This document shows, piece after piece, positions 35,035 through 41,341 of a DNA stretch of 64,000 nucleotides. Below the pieces are notes generated by a model. That model was not told where the DNA came from. It worked only from the letters and a program-made list of their open reading frames with translations, and made no database searches. The stretch's first letter is position 1. Every line of letters starts with the position of its first letter. This DNA is from Rhodococcus sp. RD6.2 (lineage in GTDB: Bacteria > Actinomycetota > Actinomycetes > Mycobacteriales > Mycobacteriaceae): assembly GCF_001040705.1 (NCBI RefSeq), contig NZ_CVQP01000009.1, forward strand, positions 354,139 through 418,138. Direction: 5' to 3'. The position numbers and the translations under genes were made by a program.

Positions 35035-37158
35035 TCACACCCTTGCGAGGCGTTCCTCGGTGGCGCCGCCCTCGACGTCGAGGTTCGGCAACGTCCGCTC
35101 CAACCAGGCCGGCGCCCACCAGTTGAACCGGCCGAGGAGCGCCATCGTCGCGGGCACGAGCACCATCCGCACGATCGTGACGTCGATGAGGACGGCGACT
35201 GCGAGGCCGACGCCCAGCATCTTCACGGTGACGTCCGCGTCGAGCGCGAAGCCGGTGAACACGGCGATCATGATGGCGGCGGCACTGGTGATGACGCGTC
35301 CCGTCGCGGCGAGACCCTGCACCACCGCGCCGTGCGGATCGCCGCTGCGGAGCCACATTTCACGGACCCGGGACAGCAGGAACACCTCGTAGTCCATGGA
35401 CAGCCCGAACAGGATCGTGAACATGAGGATCGGCACCCAACTCGACACGGGTGTCCGGCCGGGCAATCCGAGAGCGGTTGCACCCCAACCCCACTGGAAC
35501 ACGGCCACCATCACCCCGTAGGTCGCAGCGACGGACAGCAGGTTCATCGCCGCCGCTTTCACCGCGACGACGGGTGCGCGGAACACGACGGTCAGCAGCG
35601 CCACGGACAGCGCGACGACGATTCCGACGACCAGCCACAGCCGCTCCGCGAGCCGGGCGGAGATGTCGACGAACGTCGCGGTGACGCCGGTGATGTGGAC
35701 GCCGGCCGGCAGTGACGCCCGCAGGCGGTGCACCGTCTCGGTCGTCGCCTCGTTCTGGGGCGCCGTGGTCGGTTCGGCCGTGACGACGGCGGCGCGGCCG
35801 TCCGCGTTGACGATCGGCGGTGTCACGCGGGCGATGCCGGGATCCTGGCTCAGGGTCGCGGCGACCGCCGTCGGGTCGACCCCGCTGCTCCTGTCCACCG
35901 CGACCAGGAGGGGGCCGTTCGTGCCGGGCCCGAACTCGGCTGCCACGAGGTCGTGTGCGACGCGGATGGTGTTCGAGGTGGGTGCGCTGCCTGCGTCCTG
36001 CGGCCACGTCCGCATCTGCAGCACCGGCGCCGCGAGCAGCAGGAGCAGGAGCAGCGCGCCGACGGCCCACGGCCACGGGCGGCGTCCCACCCGACGCGCC
36101 CAACGGGCGGTCAGCGGCTCACGTGCTGCTCGTGGCCGGGACGCACGACCCCGGCGTCCCAGCACGCCGCGCCTCTGGCGTCCGAGTACGCGAAGTCCGG
36201 CCAGTCCGCACAGCGCCGGCACGAGGGTGATCGCCGCCAGCATCACCGCCCCGACAGTCAGGAACGTCGCGTACCCGAACGACGAGTACACGGGCAGGCC
36301 GGCCAGTCGCAGCCCGAACAGCGACACGAGGACCGTCGACCCTGCGAACACCACGGACACGCCTGCGGTCCCGTTGGCGTAGCCGGCGGCCTCCCGCGGT
36401 GCCATTCCGTCACGCAGACCGTCGGCGTAGCGCGTCACCAGCAGCAACGCGTAGTCGATGCCGACACCGATCCCGACCATGGTCGCGATGGTCGGCGCGA
36501 TCGTGCTGACGTCGGTGACGGCCGCAGCCGCCGTGATCAGTGCGCCGCCGACCCCGACGCCGGTCAACGCGACCAGCAGCGGCAGGCCCGCGGCGACCAC
36601 GGAGCCGAACGCGAACACGAGGATCAGCAGCGCGACCCCGATGCCGATCAGCTCCGCGGAACCGGACGGAGCGGAGTTGTTCTCGTGGACCTCGCCGCCG
36701 AACTCCACCTGGAGGCCCGCGGTGCGGGTGTCCGCGGCGGCGGCCTCGAGCGGATCGGTCCCTTCGGATCCGGTGAAGTCGGTGACGGGGATCGAGTACC
36801 GGACGTCGAGGATCGCGGTGTCGCCGCCGTCGGACAGGCGCGGCGGCGCCACGAACCCCACGCCGGGAAGCTCGGCGAGGCGTTCGCCGAGTGACGACAG
36901 TTCCGCTGCGGGCACGGCGCCGTCGGGGGAGTGCACGACCACCCGCGCGTCCGTTCCGGACATTGCCGGGAATCGGTCGGCGAGCAGGTGCGCGCCCGGA
37001 GTTGACGCGAGGCCGGGGATGTCGTAGTCGTCGCGGGTTTCTCCGCCTGCGACGACGGCAAGCGTCACGGCGGTCGCGAGGATCGCCGCCCAGAGGGACA
37101 GGATGCGCCAGGGATGCGCGGCGCCGGCCGAACCGACGCGATACAGGAAGGTGCTCAT
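35035..37158 (-). CDS. MmpL/RND-family exporter
   Basis: A 707-residue RND-type transporter with 11-12 helices in two similar halves, each with one helix, a large extracytoplasmic domain and a five-helix block. Proton-relay residues are visible in GVGIDYALLLVTRYADGLRDG (first half) and GLSMDYEVFLLSRVREMW (second half, Asp-Tyr pair). The size is that of the smaller actinobacterial MMPL proteins that export lipids, siderophores or drugs. It lies 22 bases after the large AfsR-like regulator gene on the same strand and is probably cotranscribed and controlled with it. Substrate unknown. Confidence 0.88.
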   Translation of the reverse strand: MSTFLYRVGSAGAAHPWRILSLWAAILATAVTLAVVAGGETRDDYDIPGLASTPGAHLLADRFPAMSGTDARVVVHSPDGAVPAAELSSLGERLAELPGVGFVAPPRLSDGGDTAILDVRYSIPVTDFTGSEGTDPLEAAAADTRTAGLQVEFGGEVHENNSAPSGSAELIGIGVALLILVFAFGSVVAAGLPLLVALTGVGVGGALITAAAAVTDVSTIAPTIATMVGIGVGIDYALLLVTRYADGLRDGMAPREAAGYANGTAGVSVVFAGSTVLVSLFGLRLAGLPVYSSFGYATFLTVGAVMLAAITLVPALCGLAGLRVLGRQRRGVLGRRGRASRPRAAREPLTARWARRVGRRPWPWAVGALLLLLLLAAPVLQMRTWPQDAGSAPTSNTIRVAHDLVAAEFGPGTNGPLLVAVDRSSGVDPTAVAATLSQDPGIARVTPPIVNADGRAAVVTAEPTTAPQNEATTETVHRLRASLPAGVHITGVTATFVDISARLAERLWLVVGIVVALSVALLTVVFRAPVVAVKAAAMNLLSVAATYGVMVAVFQWGWGATALGLPGRTPVSSWVPILMFTILFGLSMDYEVFLLSRVREMWLRSGDPHGAVVQGLAATGRVITSAAAIMIAVFTGFALDADVTVKMLGVGLAVAVLIDVTIVRMVLVPATMALLGRFNWWAPAWLERTLPNLDVEGGATEERLARV

Positions 37159-37180
37159 GGCACCACGGTCACGCCTGCCG

Positions 37181-40100
37181 CTAGTGGACGACTTGGAGTC
37201 GGCTTCGTGCCGCGTCGATCCATTGCGGGCACCCGCATCGACGTGCCAGTTCTTCCGCCGCCTTCAGGTGGACGACCGCCTCCTCCGGCCGCCCCAGCAG
37301 CAGTTCCAGGTCCGCGAGCACCGTGTCGACGGGTCCCATCGTGAACGAGCCGGTGTCGGCGCCACCGAGCTGACCGGAGTACTGCGCCAGTTGCGGGTAC
37401 AGGTGCGCGGCCTCCTCCCTCGACCCCAGTGCCGCGACCGCGATGCCCCGCTGCGTCAGGAGGAACCCGTGGAAGAAGTCGGATCGGACGGGCCGCAAAC
37501 CCACCCGCAGGGGCGGTGCCTCGGCTGCCTTGCCGTTGGCGGCGAGCGCGATGGTGAGTGGGTCGACGATCACGTCCGTTGCAGCCGTGTCGAGCGCCCG
37601 GATCATCTCCTCGAATTCGCCGGTCCGGCCCTGCGTCACCCGCAGCGAGAACAGGGCGAGAAGCAGGATTCCGTCGGCGTCGATCTCGCCGTGTCCCCGG
37701 AACTCCCGATGGGCCTGCAGGTACATCTCCTCGGCGGCGTCGAGATCACCGGACGCGTGCGCGAGCATTCCGTGCACCATCGAATTCGACGCCTGCGCCT
37801 GTTTCCAGCGGTACCGCTTCGCGAGGGCCTCGTTGTGCTCGAGGTGCTGACGTCCAGTGTCGAAGTCGCCTCGTGCGCACGCGATCTGGAGTTCGGAATA
37901 GTTGCCGATCAGTGCGAACGCCGCCCGGTCCTCGTCCTCGCCGAGGATGATCATCTCGGCCCCGATCGCGGCCCGGACCTCGACGGGAAGTGCGCCGTGC
38001 CGCAGCTCGATCCGCGAGTTCAACGCCAGGCCGAGCAGGTCCGGATCGTCGAGGTGACGTGCCAGTTCCTCCGCCTCCGCGCTTGCCGACTCGGTGCGCG
38101 CGTCATCCTCCCCGTACACCTCGTCGACGAGGATCACCAGCAGCCGGCACCGCTGCTCGTCGGTCAGGTTCGGCAGCGTCAACGCCCGCTCGATCGCCGC
38201 GACGACCCTCGTGTCGATCAGCCCGTACGGCCGGTTGATCCAGGGCGTCGGCGTGTCCCACGCGGTCAGGGACCGGACGATCAGATCGTCGCGTCCCGCC
38301 GCCTCTGCCACGGACAGGGCCCGATCGCGGGTCTCGCGGGCGGGTGCGGCCGCACCGTTCACGAGGTGGCTGCGTCCGAGGCGGGCCAGTGTGTCGACCC
38401 GCTCGTCGATATCGCGGCCGGGAAGTCGCTCCTTCGCGGGCAGTCGGTCCATCGCAGCCAGCGCCTGCTCGTAGTGCAGTGCGGCCGCGTCGTGCGCGAA
38501 ACGGGCCTCCGCCTGCCGGGCCGCGTCGAGCGCGTGGTCCGCGGCGCGGCGGGCCGTACTCGACGACAGCGCCGCTCCGAAATGGTGAGCCAACGCCGAT
38601 GCGTCCTGGGGATGGATCTCTTCCACGGCCTCGGCGACCCGCAGGTGCCAGCGCGCACGGCGCACCTGCGACAGGTCCCCGAGAAGGACGTCGCGGACGA
38701 GGGCGTGAGTGAACCGGACGGTCGACGGGTCCGGCTCGTCGAGCAGTCCGGCGACGACACCTGCCTCGACGGCATCGAGCGTCTCGTTCTCGCCGAGTTC
38801 CACAGCCCGCAGCAGGACCTCGACATCGGCCTGTCTGCCGATCACCGCGATCAGCCGCAGCACCGACACCGCGACTTCGGGGAGCCGTGCGAACCGCCTG
38901 CGCAGCACGTCACGGACGCCGTCGGGGACGTCGGAGGTGGCGACGAGCTCACCCTCACTGCCGAGCAGACGCGCACTCTCGCGCAGGTAGAAGGGGTTGC
39001 CGCCGGTCCGCTCGGTCAGGGCGCGCACCGTCGCGTCGTCGGCGTCCCCACCCGTCACCTCCCGCACGAGGGCCGCCGCGTCCGCCGTGGACAGTCCGAC
39101 GAGCCGGATCCGTTCGGGTGTCAGCGGCGCCAGCGCCGCCAACGTCGATTCCAGATTCGCGTCGGTCTCGTCCGGACGGTAGGCGGCCACCAGCAGCACC
39201 GGCACCGACTCCGCGACCCGCGTCACCAGCGCCAGGGTCTCCGCGTCCGCACGGTGCAGGTCGTCGAGGAACAGCGCCAACGGCCGGTCCCGCTGGGCGA
39301 GTGCGAGGTAGTCGGTGACGGCGCGGTGCAGGAGGAAGCGGCCGTGTGCCGACGACGACCCGCCGGCCTCGGTGGTCAACGAGGCCGCCATCACCGCGTC
39401 GTCGAGCAGCGGCGCCAGCGCGGCCGCGAGCGGACCGGGATCGACCTCGACCGCCAGCGCACGCAGGATCTCCACCCAGGCCCACGCGGGCGGCGCACCC
39501 TCGGCTTCGGGGCATCGTCCGACGAGGACGCGCGTGCCGTCGAGTTCGGCGCGAAAGCGCAGCAGCAGTTCGGTTTTCCCGCCGCCCGCCTCGGCGGACA
39601 CCAGTGCGACCCGGGCTCGGTCCGACGCCTCTGCTGCCACCGCAACCAGGGCGTCCAGCTCGGTGCGCCTGCCGACGAACACTCGATCCGCGGAGCGCGG
39701 GGCCGGTGCAGGCGCCGGCGGTACAGCGGGAGTCCGGACCGGCTGCGCGTTCACCTGAGGTCGAGGCTGAGGCTGCGGCAGCCGCTGCGCCAGCAGATCC
39801 GATTCCAGTTGCTGCAGGGCGGCCCCGGGGTCGAGGCCCAGTTCGTCCGCCAGGATGCCGCGCGCCCGGCGAAGCGCGGCCAGCGCGTCGGCCTGTCTGC
39901 CGCTCGCATGCAGGCCCAGCGCGAGCAACCGCCAGCTCTCCTCCCGCAACGGATGCGCCCGCGTCAGTGCGCCCGCCTCCGCGACGGCGCCCGCCGGATC
40001 GCCGGTGTCGAGCATCGCCGACGCCAGTCGCTCGTGGGCGACGAGCCGCAGTTCGTCGAGGCGTGCCACCTCCGGTGCCGCCCAGTCGTTGGCGGCGAAC

Positions 40101-40537
40101 TCGGCGTAGGCCGTCCCGCGCCACAGACCGAGGGATTCCTCGAGCAGTCGGCGCCTCTCCGCCGGCGCATGCCCATCGGCGGCGCGCAGCAGTGCCTCGA
40201 ACCGCCATGCGTCGACGTCCTCGGAGCCGAGGACGACGCAGTAGCCGGGGGCCTTGCTGACCAGCACCGATGCCGCCGCACGGGGTGCGCGTCCCGGCTC
40301 GAGCGCGCGACGCAGGTTCGACACGTACGCCTGCAGTGCGCCGAGTGCGCGCGGCGGCGGTTCGCCGTGCCACAGGTCGTCGATGAGCCTGTCGACGGAC
40401 ACCACCGAGCCGCGGGCGATCAGCAGCAGCGCCAGGACACCGCGTTGCCGGGGACCACCGAGGTCGAGTGACCCGCCCGCAGCTTCCCCATCACTCGAGG
40501 AGTCCGCATCCATCGAGCCCAACACCCGTATGTGCAC
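37181..40537 (-). CDS. Large AfsR/SARP-family regulator with AAA ATPase and TPR-like C-terminus
   Basis: A 1118-residue regulator. An OmpR-like winged helix (about 1-105; QRGVLALLLIARGSVVSVDR, then LQAYVSNLRRALEPG) and the bacterial transcriptional activator domain (BTAD, about 108-255) are followed by a Pro-rich linker (255-282). An STAND/AAA ATPase starts at 285 (VGRRTELDAL; Walker A AEAGGGKT at 315-322; Walker B LALFLDDLHRAD), and a helical, TPR-like C-terminal half of about 500 residues completes it. Such regulators activate antibiotic or stress genes by binding heptamer repeats spaced 11 bp; exactly such a box lies upstream at 40561-40600. Start is GTG 40537. Confidence 0.9.
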   Translation of the reverse strand: MHIRVLGSMDADSSSDGEAAGGSLDLGGPRQRGVLALLLIARGSVVSVDRLIDDLWHGEPPPRALGALQAYVSNLRRALEPGRAPRAAASVLVSKAPGYCVVLGSEDVDAWRFEALLRAADGHAPAERRRLLEESLGLWRGTAYAEFAANDWAAPEVARLDELRLVAHERLASAMLDTGDPAGAVAEAGALTRAHPLREESWRLLALGLHASGRQADALAALRRARGILADELGLDPGAALQQLESDLLAQRLPQPQPRPQVNAQPVRTPAVPPAPAPAPRSADRVFVGRRTELDALVAVAAEASDRARVALVSAEAGGGKTELLLRFRAELDGTRVLVGRCPEAEGAPPAWAWVEILRALAVEVDPGPLAAALAPLLDDAVMAASLTTEAGGSSSAHGRFLLHRAVTDYLALAQRDRPLALFLDDLHRADAETLALVTRVAESVPVLLVAAYRPDETDANLESTLAALAPLTPERIRLVGLSTADAAALVREVTGGDADDATVRALTERTGGNPFYLRESARLLGSEGELVATSDVPDGVRDVLRRRFARLPEVAVSVLRLIAVIGRQADVEVLLRAVELGENETLDAVEAGVVAGLLDEPDPSTVRFTHALVRDVLLGDLSQVRRARWHLRVAEAVEEIHPQDASALAHHFGAALSSSTARRAADHALDAARQAEARFAHDAAALHYEQALAAMDRLPAKERLPGRDIDERVDTLARLGRSHLVNGAAAPARETRDRALSVAEAAGRDDLIVRSLTAWDTPTPWINRPYGLIDTRVVAAIERALTLPNLTDEQRCRLLVILVDEVYGEDDARTESASAEAEELARHLDDPDLLGLALNSRIELRHGALPVEVRAAIGAEMIILGEDEDRAAFALIGNYSELQIACARGDFDTGRQHLEHNEALAKRYRWKQAQASNSMVHGMLAHASGDLDAAEEMYLQAHREFRGHGEIDADGILLLALFSLRVTQGRTGEFEEMIRALDTAATDVIVDPLTIALAANGKAAEAPPLRVGLRPVRSDFFHGFLLTQRGIAVAALGSREEAAHLYPQLAQYSGQLGGADTGSFTMGPVDTVLADLELLLGRPEEAVVHLKAAEELARRCGCPQWIDAARSRLQVVH

Positions 40538-40560
40538 TGCACAACTTTAGGTGCGGACGG

Positions 40561-40600
40561 GTCCGAGTGGGGTCCAAGTCGGGTGCAAGAGAGCCACAAG
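40561..40600 (+). promoter_or_regulatory. Candidate SARP binding box: four heptamers at 11-bp spacing
   Basis: GTCCGAG (40561), GTCCAAG (40572), GTGCAAG (40583) and CCACAAG (40594) start exactly 11 bases apart, so they lie on the same helix face. This is the known geometry of SARP/BTAD binding sites. It lies between the divergent AfsR-like gene (start 40537) and hemerythrin gene (start 40670), so it could serve either. The rest of the 40538-40669 gap shows only the hemerythrin ribosome site. Confidence 0.55.
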
Positions 40601-40669
40601 TGGGTCGGGTGATCGTGAATCCAGTCAGCAGAACCCAGACCTCGCAGTATCCGACCCAGGAGGCACACC

Positions 40670-41341
40670 ATGAGCACGCTCACCGCGACCGACCGCCCGG
40701 ACACCGGGGACATGATCCTCGCCCACAACATCTTCAGGCACGCGTTCGGCAGCCTGCCCGAGTTGATCCGCGCCGTCCCCGAGGGCGACACCGCGCGGGC
40801 CCGCCGGTTGGTCGAGTTCCAGACCGAGATCGCCACAGGGCTGCACCATCACCACACTGGTGAGGACGAGCTGATGTGGCCGCTGCTGCTCGACCGTGTC
40901 CCGACCGATCACGCGCTGGTGCTGCGGATGGAGGAGCAGCACGAGCGGATCGGTGAGCTCCTCGACCGCGCGGGAACCCGGGCCGCCACCTTCGAACTGT
41001 CGGCGTCGCGCAGCGACGGCGAGGCCTGGGCGTCGACGGTGTCCGCGCTGTTCACAGCGCTCGACGAGCACCTGCGTGAGGAAGAGGCGCACATCCTTCC
41101 GTTGGCGGAGGCGAACATGACGGTGGCCGAATGGGAGCAGCTCGGTGAGCGCGGGCGCGGGTCGGTTCCTGCCAACCGTCAGCTGATCCTGCTCGGATTC
41201 CTGCTGCTCGGCGCGACGCCGGACCAGCGCCGCCGCGTGCTGTCCGAGGCGCCGCTGGCCGCACGGATCGCGTGGCGGCTGGTCGGCAAGCGCGCGTTCG
41301 CGAAGGAGTACCGCGAGATCTTCGGACGCAACCCGGCGTGA
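40670..41341 (+). CDS. Hemerythrin HHE-domain protein
   Basis: A 223-residue protein with an N-terminal four-helix hemerythrin domain. Di-iron ligands are likely among His19 (LAHNIFRH), the HHHHTGEDE cluster near 59-67, His91 (EEQHERI) and the HLREEEAHILP segment near 138-147. About 70 C-terminal residues follow (LLGATPDQRRRVLSEAP), as in other actinobacterial HHE proteins. It may bind O2, NO or peroxide, or act as an iron/redox sensor in the cytosol. GGAGG lies 7-11 bases before the ATG. It is divergent from the SARP-type regulator and is its most obvious candidate target. Confidence 0.88.
   Translation: MSTLTATDRPDTGDMILAHNIFRHAFGSLPELIRAVPEGDTARARRLVEFQTEIATGLHHHHTGEDELMWPLLLDRVPTDHALVLRMEEQHERIGELLDRAGTRAATFELSASRSDGEAWASTVSALFTALDEHLREEEAHILPLAEANMTVAEWEQLGERGRGSVPANRQLILLGFLLLGATPDQRRRVLSEAPLAARIAWRLVGKRAFAKEYREIFGRNPA

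Follow-up and report, generated by a model that had tools for sequence, protein, structure and literature searches.

The intergenic region between a large SARP regulator gene and the divergent hemerythrin gene of Rhodococcus sp. RD6.2 contains four heptamers spaced at exactly 11 bp, which raises the question of whether they are an operator through which the regulator controls its neighbor. To our knowledge, SARPs are known mainly as activators of antibiotic clusters, and what the large STAND-type members of the family sense is largely open. The original prediction, made within a 64,000-nucleotide window (the whole stretch of DNA analyzed here), was of a regulator-operator-hemerythrin circuit without a described precedent. 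All four heptamers lie where they had been placed, and both neighboring genes are as described (Table 1). The -10-like hexamer downstream of the last heptamer had been missed, as had a second array on the minus strand before an MMPL-family transporter gene.

Table 1. Coordinates of the genes, heptamers and putative promoter elements of the locus, numbered within the window
Feature	Coordinates	Strand	Basis
MMPL-family transporter, 707 aa, proposed second target	35035..37158	-	Pfam PF03176, 236.5 bits
Putative -10-like GACCGT, MMPL promoter	37165..37170	-	6 nt before ATG
Heptamer CCACTAG, second array; TAG is the regulator stop codon	37181..37187	-	sequence, profile; likewise in relatives
Heptamer CTCCAAG, second (MMPL) array, inside regulator codons	37192..37198	-	sequence, profile
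Possible upstream heptamer CACGAAG, second array, inside regulator codons	37203..37209	-	in 11-bp register with the following two
Large SARP regulator, 1118 aa: Trans_reg_C, BTAD, AAA_16 (STAND-type ATPase), long C-terminal region	37181..40537	-	Pfam
Heptamer 1 GTCCGAG, hemerythrin array	40561..40567	+	sequence, 11-bp periodicity
Heptamer 2 GTCCAAG, hemerythrin array	40572..40578	+	sequence, 11-bp periodicity
Heptamer 3 GTGCAAG, hemerythrin array	40583..40589	+	sequence, 11-bp periodicity; profile match 40583-40616, 23.1
Heptamer 4 CCACAAG, promoter-proximal	40594..40600	+	sequence, 11-bp periodicity; in relatives, last core, 10 bp, -10 box
Putative -10-like GATCGT, hemerythrin promoter	40611..40616	+	10 bp after last CAAG
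Hemerythrin-domain protein, 223 aa, proposed first target	40670..41341	+	Pfam PF01814

When the 44 bases of the hemerythrin array are compared with themselves at an 11-bp offset, 22 of 33 positions match, a value reached at 6 of the 63,956 start positions in the window, all six of them in this array (40556-40561); the genome, of 5.57 Mb, has a single exact copy of GTCCGAG-N4-GTCCAAG. For a profile, in the form of a 34-bp weight matrix, the elements of 27 Nocardia, Rhodococcus, Gordonia, Aldersonia and Skermania loci were thinned to 12, with the window and its nearest relative (L002) left out. When the 200-bp upstream region is shuffled 500 times by dinucleotides, the score of the window array by this profile is never matched, and weak matches are found elsewhere, for example at position 40500 on the minus strand (14.1) and in L108 (13.9). 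The array combines the two features by which SARP promoters are recognized, direct repeats at 11 or 22 bp and a fixed distance to the -10 box. The sequence [C/G]ANNNT lies exactly 10 bp after the last CAAG-type core in 38 of 38 anchored loci, window included; with the spacing varied from 4 to 16, its one other occurrence is at spacing 7. For this count the loci were aligned on the repeats alone, with the -10 box unused, and 38 of 39 could be anchored, L015 being missed by the repeat pattern. In PMC10936776, SARP promoters are given 8 bp between the last repeat and the -10 box, compared with 10 bp from the heptamer and 6 bp from the 11-mer here; the spacing number therefore depends on how the repeat is bounded.

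The regulator has the organization of a large SARP, an OmpR-type winged helix-turn-helix followed by a BTAD domain (PF00486, 32.2 bits, and PF03704, 117.1 bits, both above the Pfam cut-offs), and a C-terminal ATPase/NOD module (PF13191, 65 bits, cut-off 32.6), whereas its long C-terminal region has no Pfam match, and none to a TPR family, at E up to 0.001. Against the NCBIfam AfsR equivalog model it scores 140 bits, well short of the cut-off of 1430. Among solved structures, EmbR matches residues 23-252 and AfsR residues 21-326, the best relative of the N-terminal domain being EmbR (2fez, E 9.9e-33). The helix LQ(A/S/T/V)Y(V/I)(S/A)(N/H)LR(R/K) is conserved in all 36 aligned regulators (out of 39, three shorter sequences having been left out), and C342, H428, H611 and H652 are invariant in the same 36. 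The conserved cysteine and histidines were considered as a possible redox sensor and no conclusion was drawn, because C342 sits in a GRC..PAWAW stretch that is common in such ATPases.

The proposed first target contains an HHE domain (64.1 bits against PF01814, cut-off 25.3), and H19, H62, E65, D66, H91, H134, E138 and E139 are invariant in all 75 aligned hemerythrins, window included, after matches shorter than about 180 residues or containing stops were left out. The canonical oxygen-carrying hemerythrin has five histidine ligands, two of them in helix 3. The window protein lacks this five-histidine set, with only one conserved histidine in helix 3 when ligands are assigned by eye, so oxygen carriage is not to be assumed and the "O2/NO-type" label attached to the protein in the original prediction goes beyond what the sequence shows. 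Three matches to solved structures at E up to 1 (best 0.081) were judged spurious. Two further hemerythrin-domain genes are encoded in the same genome, on contigs C10 and C5; by profile, the 6-kb stretch around the former has no site above 11, and around the latter a single weak match (13.9) lies some 2.4 kb past the hemerythrin domain.

Conservation at orthologous loci, which had been proposed as a check on the heptamers, extends across genera. Of 45 hemerythrin loci found in named genomes, 38 have a BTAD/AAA regulator as divergent neighbor, including five from Herbidospora in which it is divergent to the first of two tandem hemerythrin genes; the seven without an adjoining regulator are L003, L024, L030, L042, L043, L044 and L046. 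Across the paired loci the intergenic length ranges from 57 to 711 bp (the longest contains an assembly gap) with variable flanks, and the array is kept, in 11-bp phase and at a constant distance from the -10 box, in loci of Rhodococcus, Nocardia, Gordonia, Aldersonia, Skermania, Streptomyces and Herbidospora; conservation of the array was also seen by eye in Streptacidiphilus. The profile exceeds 11 in 37 of the 38 paired loci when whole loci are scanned, a count that includes the 12 training loci and their siblings. Six of the eight held-out paired loci (the window, L002, L015, L028, L035 and L037) beat all 500 of their shuffles. The remaining two are not clear of them: L031 (9/500), probably through a start codon taken too early, as it reaches 27.5 when the whole locus is read, and L041 (208/500), because an assembly gap separates array and gene. 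Two unpaired loci exceed 11, L003 (12.5) and L024 (11.5), and the profile finds nothing above 11 in L030, L042, L043, L044 and L046; CAAG/TAAG pairs visible by eye in L042 and L043 are not better than shuffles and were not counted. All seven genomes of unpaired loci have BTAD-type matches elsewhere, at most 43% identical over the regulator length, and the stretches around BTAD genes in three of these genomes (L109-L111) have no site above 11.

The association between array and regulator recurs in a second sample, drawn from a class-wide search that gave a hemerythrin match in 169 of 394 genomes. Among its best 30 loci, 29 were scored, without the window's own, and a score of at least 11 was obtained for 13 of 14 regulator-adjacent hemerythrins versus 1 of 15 others, counts that are not independent, since the genomes are related and some species are in more than one sample (Mann-Whitney p = 3e-5, which ignores relatedness). 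Adjacency here means a regulator match within flanks of roughly 1.5 kb; at four of the 14 loci (L089, L092, L095 and L104) the match covers only the C-terminal part of the regulator, and at the tandem locus L078 the hemerythrin copy adjoining the regulator was used. The one miss beside a regulator, L092, scores 3.0, reached by 22 of 300 shuffles. L096 scores 22.1 with no regulator in a 16-kb look around it, and the other 14 loci of that group are below 0.

A family sample was taken from the side of the regulator, which was matched at E up to 1e-50 in 125 of 301 genomes. In the best 30 loci, 29 without the window's own, hemerythrin adjoins the regulator in 27, and every one of these 27 has a 5' array scoring at least 12.1; the two regulators without hemerythrin have no array on the 5' side (L134, -2.7; L136, -4.3). 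Fourteen further stretches contain more distant regulators, 35-45% identical and possibly paralogues. Hemerythrin is convergent with the regulator in seven of them, and in six of the seven the array stands before hemerythrin: L144-L147 (25-27, another genus), L153 (20.4) and L155 (29.0). The seventh, L157, has regulator and hemerythrin matches and no array. Weaker matches occur in L150-L152 (9.2, 12.7 and 10.4), none above 9 in L154 and L156, and in L148 and L149 the array precedes a different membrane protein, whose start resembles that of the target on contig C5 of the window's own genome. The array cores of L094, L142 and L143 read CTCCAAA or TTCCAAA; regulator and operator may have co-varied in specificity in these cases.

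The second array overlaps the 3' end of the regulator gene and has the layout CTCCAAG-TCGT-CCACTAG, 10 bp, GACCGT, 6 bp, MMPL ATG. The same matrix gives 24.4 for this element (37198-37165, minus strand) versus 23.1 for the one at hemerythrin, and none of 200 shuffles reaches it; with a -10-like box so close to the ATG, the MMPL transcript is possibly leaderless. In regulators whose stop codon overlaps the array, the glutamine codon within it is CAA in 11 of 11 cases versus 47 of 307 glutamine codons elsewhere in the same genes, the 11 being related and not as many independent events. Because of this codon bias, the recurrent C-terminal QV of the regulators is best read as operator sequence. 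In L011, the stop-bearing CTACTAG of relatives reads CTACAAG (L011:2677, minus strand), which is nearer to the operator core and replaces the stop codon, so that the regulator extends by a few residues (1100 aa).

This second array is conserved in part of the relatives and is not general. Counting the window, 37 regulators have a visible stop; the array exceeds 11 in 19 of them and is reached by at most 2 of 200 shuffles in 23, the other 14 not being clear of shuffles. Weaker versions are seen in L009 (9.5) and in one group of Nocardia loci, which read TCACTGG-TCGT-TCACAAG (-2 to 8.7, some of them no better than shuffles), and L002, L029, L035 and L041 have no 3' array; the MMPL gene and the 3' array are both missing from L002 and L115, which are closely related to the window locus. 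In Herbidospora, and in seven loci of Rhodococcus and Aldersonia, the gene 3' of the regulator matches MMPL. Its place is taken in Nocardia by an F420H2-dependent quinone reductase (by Pfam in L008, L010 and L016, by resemblance in others), in L137 and Gordonia L023 by an LpqN lipoprotein (Pfam), and in L142 by a zinc-type dehydrogenase (Pfam). Among the best 30 loci of the family sample, MMPL stands beside the regulator in 16 of 29, the 3' array scoring at least 19.3 in each case, and the two regulators without hemerythrin, L134 and L136, have MMPL-side arrays of 23.0 and 19.6. Six of the 13 loci without MMPL are still above 11 on the 3' side, with Pfam annotation of the target for L137 and L142 only. 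A third array is found 3' of hemerythrin in L010 (L010:6865-6897, plus strand), where it precedes an FAD aromatic-ring hydroxylase, and in L018 (L018:6845, plus strand). In L090 an MMPL gene lies beside hemerythrin with no regulator match or array seen, and the hemerythrin-MMPL link may thus exist independently of the regulator.

Elsewhere in the genome, the strict pattern CAAG-N7-CAAG-N10-SANNNT has 3 sites versus 2 for a backward control, and all three are near BTAD genes, at hemerythrin (C9), at a membrane protein (C5) and at a DrrA-type ABC ATPase (C7). Over six genomes of the genus there are 18 sites versus 4 control sites; 9 of the 18 have a regulator match within 1.5 kb, 1 is the C7 site, 1 belongs to an orphan hemerythrin and 7 are neither. 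Five BTAD genes are encoded in the window's genome, and similar arrays lie beside those on contigs C1, C5 and C7; the fifth (C5, 486 kb) has no site above 11. On C1 (L055:8440-8527, plus strand), an array divergent to another BTAD regulator scores 28.4 without the usual -10 register, with units CTGCCAG, CTGCAAG and CTGCAAG at 11 bp and then further copies out of phase; by eye, it fronts an apparent graspetide-type RiPP cluster with a short precursor, an ATP-grasp-like protein and a peptidase-type ABC exporter. The C7 array (L058:12152-12215, minus strand) has three CAAG units at 11 bp before the ATPase gene, about 1.9 kb from the BTAD regulator, and on C5 (L056:5352-5392, plus strand) 6 bp separate the end of the -10 box from the ATG of a membrane-type protein that has no Pfam match and adjoins a BTAD regulator. 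Judged from the sequences, the motif is a code shared by these SARPs as a class; as several BTAD regulators of the genome have it in common, cognate pairing rests on adjacency. The motif class is accordingly not unique to the regulator-hemerythrin pair of the window, and CGGCAAG of PimR is already known (PMC5930380). The hemerythrin arrays without an adjoining regulator (L003, L024 and L096) are possibly controlled in trans by a paralogue.

Taken with this comparative evidence, the heptamers very probably are the operator of the hemerythrin promoter, and the adjacent SARP would activate both hemerythrin and the gene at the second array. A repeat that arose by chance or as an artefact of coding bias, without function, might be suspected from the weak matches (14.1, 13.9) that the profile yields in GC-rich DNA, but the hemerythrin array is reached by 0 of 500 shuffles, its 11-bp self-match is unique in 64 kb, the -10 spacing is single in 38 of 38 loci, and the element is kept across several actinobacterial genera within variable flanks. 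On the strength of the shuffles and the conservation we reject this explanation, whose probability is negligible. The position of the array in a shared divergent region, as short as 57 bp in relatives, means that a regulator promoter could overlap it, and the array might then mainly control the regulator itself with hemerythrin as a bystander. The -10 box, however, is on the hemerythrin side at a fixed distance, and in the convergent loci L144-L147 the array is before hemerythrin and not before the regulator (these regulators are 37-45% identical and maybe paralogues); autoregulation as the main role was set aside on these two grounds, and we regard it as very improbable, the more so as the regulators that lack hemerythrin (L134 and L136) lack a 5' array as well.

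The operator might also be read by a different protein. Candidates are a BTAD paralogue encoded in the same genome and a response regulator of the OmpR type, a family in which some members likewise use direct repeats at 11 bp. Such a binder would fit the similar arrays beside BTAD genes on C1, C5 and C7, the orphan arrays at L003, L024 and L096 and the BTAD-type matches elsewhere in the genomes of all seven unpaired loci. It is nevertheless unlikely, given that the array accompanies 13 of 14 hemerythrins with an adjacent regulator versus 1 of 15 without, at overlapping ranges of hemerythrin identity, and that the helix described above is kept in 36 of 36 aligned regulators. The circuit between the adjacent regulator, the operator and hemerythrin, as originally proposed, is thus supported by comparative sequence data; its restriction to one gene is not, as the second array would serve MMPL or another gene.

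In the circuit that we favor, the SARP domain (winged helix-turn-helix and BTAD) of the divergent regulator would occupy neighboring heptamers along a single helix face, and the array of four at hemerythrin could hold more monomers. The bound protein would recruit RNA polymerase to the hemerythrin promoter with its -10 box, as AfsR does at afsS, and binding of the same regulator to the second array, where its own gene ends, would switch on the next gene, MMPL in this case. The arrays, their phase, the fixed distance to the -10 box, the conservation and the co-occurrence with regulator and target can be read from the sequences directly, and it is by analogy with AfsR that binding and activation are proposed. 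Activity would presumably be gated by the ATPase and the C-terminal region in response to a signal. Because the predicted targets are a di-iron hemerythrin and, at the second array, MMPL, F420-dependent quinone reductase, LpqN or a zinc-type dehydrogenase, our best guess, a weak one, is stress at the envelope or in the quinone/redox pool.

On balance, we lean toward the view that this is a widespread and undescribed actinobacterial stress module, in which a STAND-type SARP would coordinate hemerythrin with an MMPL exporter or an F420-dependent quinone reductase from two operators that bracket the regulator gene, one of them in its final codons and stop, the recurrent C-terminal QV-x-H/Y tail being a side effect of selection on the operator. 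Reporters make the sensing question accessible in a module that is conserved, occurs in Rhodococcus species and combines a simple cargo with two readable operators. By the rule of NNNCAAG at 11 bp and 10 bp to [C/G]ANNNT, candidate targets of other BTAD regulators can be recognized in sequence, and in the second array the same stretch of DNA would act as an operator and encode the C-terminus of a protein.

The statement that no example of such a circuit had been described agrees with our search of the open-access literature, in which no hemerythrin under a SARP, BTAD or AfsR-type regulator was found, most subscription papers lying outside that search. The hemerythrin-like proteins MSMEG_2415, 3312 and 6212 of Mycobacterium smegmatis, likewise actinobacterial, are linked to susceptibility to H2O2 and erythromycin, and the available text mentions no SARP control (PMC4660385). 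Hemerythrin is listed in a regulon table of OsdR, in a paper that names AfsR in a reference. Outside antibiotic clusters, the SARP-like EmbR of mycobacteria is a precedent that is not known to have an ATPase. It differs from the window regulator in carrying an FHA domain, according to PMC10936776. PimR, or SARP-LAL, resembles the present system in its heptamers ending in CAAG with 4-bp spacers: PMC5930380 describes CGGCAAG in 2-3 copies, bound cooperatively with two needed for binding. The PimR operator belongs to a polyene cluster and does not overlap the -35 region (PMC5930380), whereas the array here is fixed 10 bp from the -10 box. The closest likeness in architecture is to AfsR of Streptomyces coelicolor at afsS, with winged helix-turn-helix, BTAD and ATPase, and with 11-bp direct repeats beside a -10 box; as described in PMC10936776, the site bound by AfsR consists of two 11-bp repeats, from -40 to -19, next to the suboptimal -10 CACTGT, and the protein contacts RNA polymerase. 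The two 11-mers at MMPL would occupy the same span as this afs box if the transcript starts at the ATG. The window regulator differs from AfsR in not being its equivalog (140 versus 1430 bits), in an operator core of CAAG, in targets that would be hemerythrin and MMPL instead of afsS, and in the two arrays that bracket its own gene.
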